A stretch of DNA of 6,980 nt from a bacterium (GTDB lineage Bacteria; SM23-31; JAUVVT01): positions 1 to 6,980 of the forward strand of contig JAUWXV010000198.1 in the NCBI GenBank assembly GCA_030616165.1, in the 5' to 3' direction. Shown here in pieces: positions 3,951-6,980 of the stretch; position 1 is the first letter of the stretch, and each line of letters starts with the position of its first letter. The translations under genes were made by a program, and so were the position numbers. A model generated the notes under the pieces. The model saw only the letters and a program-made list of their open reading frames with translations, was not told the origin of the DNA and did not search any database.

Positions 3951-4037
3951 AGTTTTTCTTCTATTTTAATCTGGGTGGATTTGTAATTTTTTAAAATTAT
4001 TTTATATGCCTTAAAAAATAAATCCTTTCATTAATAT

Positions 4038-4064
4038 GGTCAGACAAGAATGTCTGACCTACTA
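4038..4064 (-). repeat. REP-like hairpin, copy 2 (GTAG head on - strand)
   Basis: Perfect 9-bp stem GGTCAGACA (4038-4046) and TGTCTGACC (4051-4059) around a 4-nt loop. Read on the - strand it begins TAGTA and then the stem, so a GTAG tetranucleotide overlaps the 5' stem base. In that orientation it differs from copy 1 at only four of 27 positions: head G/A, loop C/T, and one stem pair changed from A-T to T-A. The pairing is therefore kept while the sequence drifts. It sits 87 nt after the TPR stop and could also act as a transcript 3'-end barrier. Confidence 0.8.
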
Positions 4065-4260: not shown

Positions 4261-6351
4261 ATGGACAGGAAGTTTGTATTAAAGATTAGAGTTCATATTT
4301 TTACTTTGATATTTTTGGTATTATTTTCAGCGGTTTCAAATTCTCAAGATATGAGGATTATACCGGAGACTATAATGCCTAAAAAGATGGTCAATGATAT
4401 AGTGAATGAGATATCTGGAACATTGGTTTATAATCATATAATTGAAATTGCTGGCTATAATCATAATCGAAAACAGGAAGAATATCAGGGACTTTATTTT
4501 GAGAGTGAGTATATTATAAAGAGGGCTGAGGAATATGGATTTTCGGATGTCCATGTTGAACATTTTCAACAGGGCAGAAATCAGTGGGATGCCGAAATAG
4601 GAGAATTGTGGTTAGTTACGCCCGAAGAGAAATTGTTAATTAGTTATCGGGATGTACCAGCCTGTCTGGCTCAGGGCAGTGAAACAGTTGATTTATCAGC
4701 AGATTTAGTATATGTTGGCTCAGGATTGGATTCTTCGGAATATTTAAATAATGAAGTTGAAGGGAAAATAGTTCTTGCATCCGGTTCGGCCGGGAGAGTT
4801 TATCGGCTCGCGAATGGTTTCGGTGCGGTTGGTGTTGTGGGATATGGTCAGTCAAGAGGTGTGGATTATCCGGATCAGATTGTATGGACAAGGATTAGAG
4901 TTCAACCGGGTGCATCAGCAAAGTTTGCATTTACTATTCCAACAAGACTTGGAAACGAACTTGCACAGATTTTGAATAGAGAGAAAAATGTGAAGGTTCG
5001 TGCAAATGTTAAAACCACGTATTATAAGTCAGATTCAGAGGTTCCGACTGCTTTGATACCTGGAAACGGGACTTCAGACCAGGAAGTTGTATTATGCGGA
5101 CATCTCTTTGAAGGGATAGCAAAACAGGGAGCACTCGACAATATCAGCGGGTGTGCCGCAATTCTTGAAGCAGGAAGGGCTCTTATTAAGTTGATTGAAC
5201 AGGGTAAAATCGAAAGACCAAAAAGATCAATCCGATTTTTGTGGATACCAGAAATGTCTGGCACAAGAGAATATCTTCGAAGATATCCAGAAGAGGTAAA
5301 GAAGATTATAGCTGCTATAAATCTTGATATGGTTGGAGAAGACGTCAAGAAAAATCACAATAGTCTTGTACTTTATCGTTCGGTAGATTCCAGAGGGAGT
5401 TTTTTGAATGATATATGTCAGGAATTATTTGAATATGTGGGAATTACAAACAGAGAGAGGGTTCATGATCGCGGCTGGACAAAGATGCTTAATCCCATTT
5501 TTGATCCCAATGGCTCCAGAGATCCATTTTATTATAATATTGAAAGATATTACGGTTCGAGTGACCACATTGTTTTTCTCGATAGAGAGTTTGGGATTCC
5601 AGCGGTAATGTTTAATAATTGGCCTGATATGTTCTATCATTCAAATGAGGATAGACCTGATAAAGCCGATCCTACCCAGTTAAAGAGGGCGGTATTTTTA
5701 GCTCTTGCTTCTGCTTATGTCATCGCCGATGCTGGAGCGGATAATACACAAAAAATATTGGCTCTAATTTTTGGGAAGGCTAATGTGAGGATTATGAAAG
5801 ACCTTGAAAAAGGATTGAAGTATCTTCAAATGAGTTATCCTTATCAACTGAGAGAGAGGTATAAAGAGGTCAAAAATAATATTCATGCTGCTTATATTAG
5901 AGAGATTATAAACATAGAGTCTATAAAAGTATTGGCTGAAAGTGATGTTGTTGCAGAAGAGGAAATTTCAAATATAAAAAATATCCTTGTTAATTCAGAA
6001 AAGGAGACACAGTCAAAAGTGACCGAATTGTATAAAATGATGTGTGAAAGGTATGGACAAGATGCAGATGTGCCTCGCCTTACAGAAGACGAACCGTATG
6101 CCTCAAACATAACTCCAGTATCTAATGAAAAGGATTCAAAAAGTGGTTCTGGGGCTTCGGGAAGGGGAGGTTCACGGAGATTATCTCAGTTTTCAAGGTT
6201 GGAACTTATGAATTTTATCGATTCGGGATTATCTATACTTGATATACAAAACTCCATTTCATCTCAGTTCGGAATGGTGGAAATTAAAGATGTGATAGAT
6301 TTCTATAAAAACCTTGAAGAAAGAGGTTTGATTGAACTTATCAGGAAATGA
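4261..6351 (+). CDS. exported M28-like metallopeptidase with PA domain and C-terminal winged-helix-like domain
   Basis: A 696-residue protein. Residues 1-29 are a signal peptide (basic start, core IFTLIFLVLFSAV, likely cleavage after SNS), so it acts outside the cytoplasm. About 140-230 looks like a protease-associated (PA) insert (LVYVGSG, VEGKIVLASG, GAVGVVGYG). The M28-type core follows: CGHLFEG (279-285), QGALDNISG (289-297), WIPEMSGT (328-335), INLDMVGE (353-360), SSDH (433-436), and a closing WPDMFYHSNEDRPD (454-467). Probable zinc ligands are His281, Asp293, Glu331, Asp356 and His460. Two family catalytic landmarks differ: HxD is HLF, and the Glu-Glu pair is Pro-Glu. Residues 505-600 are charged and helical; 624-640 is a Gly/Ser-rich linker; 641-696 resembles a winged helix. 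The start is fixed by a very good GGAGGT at 4251-4256. Likely an aminopeptidase or a relative of the DUF4910 group; activity is not certain. Confidence 0.88.
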   Translation: MDRKFVLKIRVHIFTLIFLVLFSAVSNSQDMRIIPETIMPKKMVNDIVNEISGTLVYNHIIEIAGYNHNRKQEEYQGLYFESEYIIKRAEEYGFSDVHVEHFQQGRNQWDAEIGELWLVTPEEKLLISYRDVPACLAQGSETVDLSADLVYVGSGLDSSEYLNNEVEGKIVLASGSAGRVYRLANGFGAVGVVGYGQSRGVDYPDQIVWTRIRVQPGASAKFAFTIPTRLGNELAQILNREKNVKVRANVKTTYYKSDSEVPTALIPGNGTSDQEVVLCGHLFEGIAKQGALDNISGCAAILEAGRALIKLIEQGKIERPKRSIRFLWIPEMSGTREYLRRYPEEVKKIIAAINLDMVGEDVKKNHNSLVLYRSVDSRGSFLNDICQELFEYVGITNRERVHDRGWTKMLNPIFDPNGSRDPFYYNIERYYGSSDHIVFLDREFGIPAVMFNNWPDMFYHSNEDRPDKADPTQLKRAVFLALASAYVIADAGADNTQKILALIFGKANVRIMKDLEKGLKYLQMSYPYQLRERYKEVKNNIHAAYIREIINIESIKVLAESDVVAEEEISNIKNILVNSEKETQSKVTELYKMMCERYGQDADVPRLTEDEPYASNITPVSNEKDSKSGSGASGRGGSRRLSQFSRLELMNFIDSGLSILDIQNSISSQFGMVEIKDVIDFYKNLEERGLIELIRK

Positions 6352-6367
6352 GTTTTGTTATCCTGAT
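6340..6367 (+). terminator. hairpin spanning the peptidase stop codon, possible terminator
   Basis: ATCAGGA (6340-6346) pairs perfectly with TCCTGAT (6361-6367), 7 bp with three G-C pairs, and the stop codon at 6349-6351 lies in the 14-nt loop. The following sequence is A/T-rich but has no immediate T-run, so this is a weak terminator candidate. Confidence 0.3.
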
Positions 6368-6459
6368 TAATACATAAAATTATTTATTTTAAAGACGATG
6401 TTATCGACACTGAGTCCGAGATTTAAGATATTTTCTAAATATGATTAATTTTACAAATT

Positions 6460-6557
6460 TGATAAATTTTTATCATTTTGTGATAATATTTTATCATTTT
6501 GAGAGAATATTTTATCATTTTGTGATAAAAAATGATTAAAAATTATCATTTTTATCA
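6460..6557. repeat. phased array of TTATCA/TGATAA half-sites
   Basis: Hexamers lie at 6460 (TGATAA), 6470 (TTATCA), 6481 (TGATAA), 6491 (TTATCA), 6502 (AGAGAA, decayed), 6512 (TTATCA) and 6523 (TGATAA). The steps are 10, 11, 10, 11, 10, 11 nt, so each TTATCA-to-TTATCA period is exactly 21 nt. TTATCA is always followed by TTTTG within the last three full units, giving the 17-nt inverted repeat TTATCATTTTGTGATAA at 6470 and 6512. Less regular copies follow: TGATTA at 6533, TTATCA at 6543 and at 6552. All half-sites would face one side of the helix, as expected for cooperative binding of a dimeric protein. Confidence 0.75.
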
Positions 6558-6715
6558 TTTTGTTTATATTAATAAAAAATTAGCATTGTTCATTATTCTA
6601 TGTATTACAAGGGTTTGCGAATTTATTAAAAAAATATTTTTTTTATTATCATCAAAAAAACAACAATTTTTTTTCTGAAAAATGTGTAAATTGTTAAAAA
6701 ATAGAACAATAAAGA

Positions 6716-6740
6716 TTATCACTATGATAAAATCCTATCA
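6716..6740. repeat. second cluster of the TTATCA/TGATAA motif
   Basis: TTATCA (6716-6721), 3-nt spacer, TGATAA (6725-6730), 4-nt spacer, CTATCA (6735-6740) followed by TTT. It uses the same hexamer, alternating orientation and about 9-10 nt steps as the array at 6460, and lies about 160 nt further right. A loop between the two clusters by the same protein is possible. Confidence 0.5.
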
Positions 6741-6787
6741 TTTACATAAATATTGAGTTTAAGGCTGAACACCATCGCCAGCAGAGA

Positions 6788-6813
6788 GGACAACCCGAGG
6801 GTTGTCCCTACAA
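6788..6813 (-). repeat. REP-like hairpin, different subfamily (GTAG head on - strand)
   Basis: GGACAACCC (6788-6796) and GGGTTGTCC (6799-6807) form a perfect inverted repeat around GA; in practice an 8-bp stem with a 4-nt loop. On the - strand the stem is preceded by TTGTAG, so it carries the same GTAG-type head as copy 2, but the stem sequence is different. It is much more GC-rich than its surroundings; the GC-richer flank at about 6761-6787 may belong to the same inserted unit. Confidence 0.7.
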
Positions 6814-6927
6814 TTAATCCCAATCAATATATTACAATTGTATTATATTTTCGTACTAAAGCTTTTTATTAACAATTCATTCTGAAGGTTAATTTTTTTA
6901 GTTCATCGAAATATAAACAAGTTTCTA

Positions 6928-6967
6928 ATTGTTATTGATAATAATATCACATTATAAATATAACAAT
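6928..6967. promoter_or_regulatory. nested inverted repeats at the right edge
   Basis: Outer arms ATTGTTAT (6928-6935) and ATAACAAT (6960-6967) enclose an inner pair TGATA (6936-6940) and TATCA (6945-6949). The inner pair is the same GATA-type half-site as in the array but with the opposite order and a 4-nt gap, which loosely resembles a Fur-type box. It may belong to the promoter of a gene beyond the window. Confidence 0.25.
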
Positions 6968-6980
6968 ATATATTCGTAAA

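Follow-up and report, generated by a model that had tools for sequence, protein, structure and literature searches.

A helically phased half-site array in a dispersed bacterial element: a candidate recognition site for phage-type small terminase proteins

Among the closest described counterparts of the locus presented here is the phage small terminase subunit (TerS) with its pac or cos site, as represented by SPP1/SF6, by PaP3 and by the Bacillus cereus prophage protein of PDB entry 2ao9, the last being described as a putative nonameric TerS (PMC7672466). A recent review (PMC9611059) describes the way in which TerS recognizes DNA as unclear and a matter of controversy, and a wrapping, nucleosome-like model is discussed in the TerS reviews (PMC9611059, PMC7672466). 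Some phage satellites (PICI/SaPI, PICMI) carry a terS gene of their own together with a pac/cos site that redirects packaging. Other relevant systems are REPIN-RAYT and further master-gene repeats, where many short gene-less copies accompany a few protein-coding ones and persist through speciation, and MITEs of the Tc1/mariner-IS630 type, which have TA as target. Mobile promoters are dispersed homologous promoter regions.

The DNA considered here (the window, that is the whole stretch of 6,980 nucleotides that was analysed) is contig 155 (C155) of a draft genome of 3.74 Mb; position 6980 is the end of this contig. Its right-hand part carries one copy of a dispersed element with a promoter at one end and a phased array of hexameric half-sites at the other. 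The element is like the phage TerS systems in that some copies encode a helix-turn-helix protein of the same family, in that its site is close to terS and in that multiple contacts would be made along the DNA. Unlike them, its terS is solitary, with no terL; its site is an array with regular 10-bp phasing; gene-less copies lie dispersed by the dozen; and the half-site switches between copies. With the satellites it shares the occurrence of terS beside a candidate site, the chromosomal location and a phage-related promoter, and the same genome also contains a packaging module (C76) and a head operon (C238), both of phage type. However, the element measures only about 0.3-1.2 kb, most copies are without a gene, there are dozens per genome, and in none of the copies inspected does an integrase, replication or regulatory gene lie between the promoter and the array. 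Many short gene-less copies beside a few protein-coding ones, and persistence through speciation, recall REPIN-RAYT, whereas here the master protein would be a DNA-binding protein of the terminase type, not a transposase, and promoter and phased array are part of the copies. As in Tc1/mariner-IS630 MITEs, TA-flanked inverted repeats occur, but only in the lineage of the window copy, and the array element is independent of these ends. Finally, as with mobile promoters, a conserved promoter is scattered before unrelated genes, but the element has a phased array and terS in addition, and many copies do not precede a gene. No earlier description of the element was found among the papers listed in a literature search.

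The features of the window copy and of its surroundings are the following.

4261..6351, forward strand: gene of an M28-family peptidase (PF04389, E=1e-18), convergent with the element; its stop codon lies a few bases before the element start
6359..6378, no strand: left terminal inverted repeat in degenerate form, TCCTGATTAATACATAAA differing from ACCTGAATAATTCATAAA by 3 mismatches, with TA in front of it; its right counterpart lies past the contig end
6460..6557, reverse strand: phased half-site array, 10 slots of which 8 are exact TGATAA/TTATCA, steps of 9-11 nt
6566..6705, reverse strand: block of conserved non-coding sequence next to the array (...GTTCATTATTCTATGTATTACAAGGGTTTGCGAA... to CTGAAAAATGTGTAAATTGTTA), common to element copies
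6716..6730, no strand: extra inverted pair TTATCA-CTA-TGATAA inside the element, also seen in C253, C33 and C84 (several copies)
6770..6830, no strand: variable interior with a small dispersed hairpin repeat, GGACAACCCGAGGGTTGTCCCTACAAT, which is independent of the element
6925..6980, reverse strand: promoter end of the element, pointing leftwards to the array; -10 TATATT at 6962-6957, spacer ..ACGAATAT..
6931..6964, reverse strand: imperfect palindrome GTTATTGATAATAATATCACATTATAAATATAAC, which overlaps the -10 region and may be the operator of the element promoter (alignment A3, model R1)

The array comprises 10 slots over 98 bp. These are TGATAA at 6460, TTATCA at 6470, TGATAA at 6481, TTATCA at 6491, AGAGAA at 6502, TTATCA at 6512, TGATAA at 6523, TGATTA at 6533, and TTATCA at 6543 and 6552, the steps being in order 10, 11, 10, 11, 10, 11, 10, 10 and 9 nt. 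The initial annotation, made from the letters of the window, had reported the first seven slots, six of them exact and AGAGAA deviating, with alternating 10- and 11-nt steps and a 5-nt spacer that is TTTTG every time. All of this is found where it was said to be, and the phase runs on through three more slots to 6557. Its count of eleven exact hexamers between 6460 and 6730 was reproduced as well, and the array indeed lies in DNA without genes, from 6352 to the common end of window and contig at 6980. In this region (79% A+T), 12 exact hexamers are present against 1.57 +/- 1.22 expected from composition-matched shuffles (maximum 7 in 2000); over the whole window, 27 copies of TGATAA/TTATCA compare with 10.9 expected. 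A window-wide scan gave the array a phased-chain score of 7.2, the shuffle maximum being 4.2, and in a separate scan its phased-chain score likewise lay far above shuffles.

Nearly all of 6354-6980 is dispersed repeat. When 6340-6980 was compared with the same genome, 54 matches were obtained, about twenty of them strong; several sit at contig ends, as expected because repeats break assemblies. About twenty separate short matches, to positions 444-512 of this query, are due to the hairpin repeat of the variable interior. Leftward in the window, the order of the element is a sigma70-like promoter with palindrome, a variable interior, the conserved block and the phased array. Across copies, the promoter-like end is invariant, with TTCTTGAC or TTCTTGTAT, ..ACGAAYAT.., TATATT and then a palindrome that ends in ATAAC and covers the -10 and start region (alignment A3). 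The -35 of the window copy is situated beyond the contig end; it reads TTGTAT or TTGACA in other copies. A sequence model of the promoter end recovers 27 solid copies in this genome (window copy: C155:6925-6979, E=6.4e-11). A second genus of the family yields 15, and four further genomes of the class yield none at E<=1e-4. The other genus keeps the same element order, with TGATAA, TGAGAC and TGACAA half-sites, and a core related to the conserved block, AATACAATAAATAATGAAC, is present there. Exact ends and a target duplication of the basic promoter-array element were sought in the copies and none were found; similarly, the repeated flank of C319 and C329 provided no third flank copy without element that could serve as an empty site. 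The neighbours seen around the copies are ordinary host genes.

Among 49 scanned copies from the two genera, phasing scores are mostly 4.2-10.6, as compared with a shuffle 99% point of 3.0 and a maximum of 4.2. Direct half-site pairs are separated by steps of 9 (37 cases) or 10 (61 cases), converging pairs by 10 (59 cases) and diverging pairs by 11 (30 cases). Whole arrays are filled by TGATAA, TGGGAA, TGAGAC or TGACAA (common form TGRNAM), so that the half-site switches at all slots together while the phasing of about 10 bp stays. Orientation also varies, some arrays being all direct (GAGAC; five TGATAAAAAA in L234) and others alternating. The proposal in the initial annotation that protein binds along one face of the DNA is thereby strengthened, since the steps of 9-11 bp hold in all these copies, for direct and inverted arrangements and with a changing hexamer. 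Neither of the two observations that the initial annotation had named as refuting it was made: 19 of the 20 exact TTATCA-N5-TGATAA sites of the genome fall within element copies or related arrays, and the array recurs in the nearest relative. As for context, a single operator, a partition site, iterons or nucleoid nucleation had been listed; what this list missed, a dispersed and probably phage-derived element with a promoter and, in some copies, a TerS-like gene, was not visible from the window alone.

In two of the TGATAA copies, C128 and C339, an open frame for a protein of 125-132 residues lies between promoter and array. Altogether, the genome contains seven TerS-like genes. One of them, the C76 gene, is a genuine phage terS, standing beside terL and a portal gene. 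The remaining six are solitary and all located among host genes (C339, C173, C192, C329 and two in C128, C128a and C128b); each follows the promoter and is itself followed by an array. None has terL next to it, terL being present only in C76 and in the class relatives. The solitary genes match PF13022 with E values of 1e-14 to 3e-15, above the curated cut-off, and PHROG 24579 (terminase small subunit) with E values down to 3e-14; this family membership holds for the gene-bearing copies and not for the gene-less copy of the window. The only convincing relative of solved structure is 2ao9 (profile E=1.1e-4). For two close pairs of terS, dN/dS is 0.31 and 0.63. The half-site follows the TerS clade, with TGATAA in C339 and C128a, TGGGAA in C173 and C192, and TGAGAC in C329 and C128b; this match between protein and site is a small sample because only six gene-bearing copies, in three clades, are available. 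Distant TerS-like relatives in other phyla and in viral contigs have no phased array within 900 bp.

In the GAGAC group, four gene-less copies at unrelated loci (C16, C277, C293 and C319, i.e. L144, L146, L147 and L148) have in common one internal deletion of terS, which fuses the first ~20 with the last ~8 codons, and C233 represents another stage of decay. In the GGGAA group, little else than promoter and array is left in C112, C147, C149 and C317. To judge from these sequences, gene-less copies are deletion derivatives. Their origin is indicated by a phage head operon in C238 (L055 228-3768), where the same promoter occurs ~40 bp upstream of a coiled-coil gene, the gene of a major head protein (PHROG E=3e-58) and a virion protein gene (E=5e-15). 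Of the first gene in this operon, the leader and the initial codons can still be recognized behind the promoter of C112, C147, C149 and C317, and also of C128a, which is a terS-bearing copy. Because these remnants persist behind the element promoter, the elements are best read as having arisen, by deletion, from a phage transcription unit of which promoter and array would have been kept and terS often lost. By analogy, keeping nothing but cis-acting sites would correspond to the behaviour of defective phages.

Apart from this, it may be mentioned that the C238 head operon directly adjoins host genes and a HepT/MNT nucleotidyltransferase pair. The packaging module of C76 (L066 1-10953) has the gene order ~335-aa gene, terS, terL, and a module of the same order is found in four class relatives (L069-L072), that is in every class genome searched except the nearest relative. 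This class-wide module could be a common prophage or a remnant resembling a gene-transfer agent.

Considering these properties, we would give slightly better than even credit to the view that the array is a conserved terminal recognition site of TerS-type ring proteins, carried by a phage-derived dispersed mini-element. It draws together direct observations on the array, the promoter motif, the copy number, the solitary TerS genes, the shared deletions, half-site switching, the second genus and the phage-operon remnants. According to this view, the element would consist of a promoter with a palindromic operator, a terS-like gene or its deletion remnant, and the phased half-site array. Full-length copies would encode a phage-type small terminase that displays its N-terminal helix-turn-helix on an oligomeric ring; a ring with outward helix-turn-helix motifs is suggested by the homology to 2ao9 (PMC7672466). 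TerS would contact its cognate array through one half-site in each helical turn; about 100 bp would in this way wrap round the ring, and half-site specificity would track the TerS clade. Full copies would be recognized in cis, whereas gene-less ones, including that of the window, would keep their cis-acting ends and be recognized in trans. The window copy would have spread further inside a unit with Tc1/mariner-like inverted repeats. The binding of TerS to the array, the wrapping round the ring and any use of the site, whether to signal packaging for a defective phage or satellite, to control transcription or just to spread and persist, are what we infer from this arrangement.

Several points weigh against parts of the TerS reading. 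The case for the array as a pac site is circumstantial, coming from clade-specific half-sites beside terS, and such a role is not seen in phages because no phased array was found near the terS of C76 or near the phage terS loci of the four relatives; this absence counts against packaging use. G001, a 70% complete genome of the second genus, has many arrays, and the sole solitary gene of TerS type in it (C68) lacks both the promoter and an array, which argues against TerS as the universal binder. Alternating inverted half-sites are not predicted by a simple cyclic ring, to which the direct arrays would fit better. It is with much reserve, and as a rather unlikely extension, that one may imagine minimal phage-derived packaging parasites, made of a late promoter, terS and a pac-like array or of promoter and array only, dispersed to dozens of chromosomal sites in at least two genera, with the specificities of TerS and array switching in concert and the arrays as possible seeds of transduction. 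If arrays start packaging, the chromosomes of the group would hold dozens of built-in start points for transduction; if they act on transcription, the elements make up a dispersed regulon born from a phage. Matched TerS-like clades and arrays with different half-sites would offer a direct system in which the code of recognition could be read and the wrapping model put to the test.

Other explanations may be envisaged. The element could be a mobile promoter or regulatory leader, the array acting between promoter and gene as an operator or roadblock for a repressor and the dispersal resulting in a regulon. The strong conservation of the promoter motif (alignment A3) speaks in its favour, and so does the gene that comes next after the array, a same-strand gene in 26 of the 38 gene-less copies (two-sided binomial p about 0.03) and, in G001, in 10-11 cases against 2. 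Downstream examples are hisS and the genes of aspartate-semialdehyde dehydrogenase, sulfatase, amidohydrolase, CstA, Maf, PIG-L and an ABC transporter. However, the downstream genes have no common function, the interior of the element is often interrupted by other repeats, and convergence with the next gene is observed for the window copy, for 11 others and for all six terS-bearing copies. We regard this explanation as unlikely; the element may, secondarily, serve to regulate the genes behind it. Another candidate is a transcribed RNA element, either a leader or a small RNA, whose half-sites would form hairpins by pairing. TTATCA/TGATAA do change together to TTCCCA/TGGGAA and TTGTCA/TGACAA, and shuffled versions of the window array fold less well than the array itself (z=-4.0). 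Yet direct GAGAC arrays fold like shuffles (z=-0.17) while retaining the 10-bp step. Because direct arrays do not fold, pairing is not kept in all members and the hairpin reading was rejected, with very little probability left to it; moreover, a 10/11-nt period would have no reason in RNA, and no Rfam match was found in the window. In parC/tubC-like sites, small repeats in direct orientation recur about once per helical turn. Their resemblance to the present arrays, together with the dozens of dispersed copies, might evoke chromosomal centromere-like or nucleoid-nucleation sites, but the sequence of the site varies between copies within one genome and a promoter and phage-operon remnants are attached to it, which makes this idea scarcely credible.

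There remains the possibility of a purely selfish MITE, whose array would only be a transposase-binding end and whose copies would be moved by a transposase. Indeed, copies of the window type are found in units of 0.9-1.0 kb bounded by inverted repeats ACCTGAATAATTCAYAAA and flanked by TA. C253 and C191 are complete units, with TA on both sides in C253 and a changed right-hand TA in C191; of such a unit, the left end is seen in C84 and in the window and the right end in C33. Repeats of the ACCTGAATAATTCAYAAA type number 73 genome-wide, against 0 for a reversed control pattern. The copies are also non-coding and multiple, as MITEs are, and the deletions shared by gene-less copies look MITE-like. 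On the other hand, most array copies are without such inverted repeats, none being found in C211, C172, C92, C103, C177, C108 and all inspected GGGAA and GAGAC copies, and for the basic promoter-array element the search for target duplication mentioned above was negative. Furthermore, a transposon would explain the spread of one lineage only, because units with the same ends have unrelated, array-free interiors. So the window lineage appears to have been captured by a Tc1/mariner-like MITE and most other array copies not, and a MITE as sole explanation seems improbable. Insertion of the array into a standard inverted-repeat unit of ~235 bp was considered and discarded: only the terminal repeats match, and therefore no empty site is available. 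Independently of the array, the genome harbours a MITE family of ~220-240 bp with the terminal inverted repeat ACCTGAATAATTCAYAAA and flanking TA (e.g. L210 282-516 and L211 868-1102).

Finally, short hairpin repeats are present in the intergenic DNA of the window at 1153-1175 (GACAGACATTCCTGTCTGTC), 4035-4063 (GGTCAGACAAGAATGTCTGACC) and 6784-6813 (GGACAACCCGAGGGTTGTCC), the last being widely dispersed in the genome.
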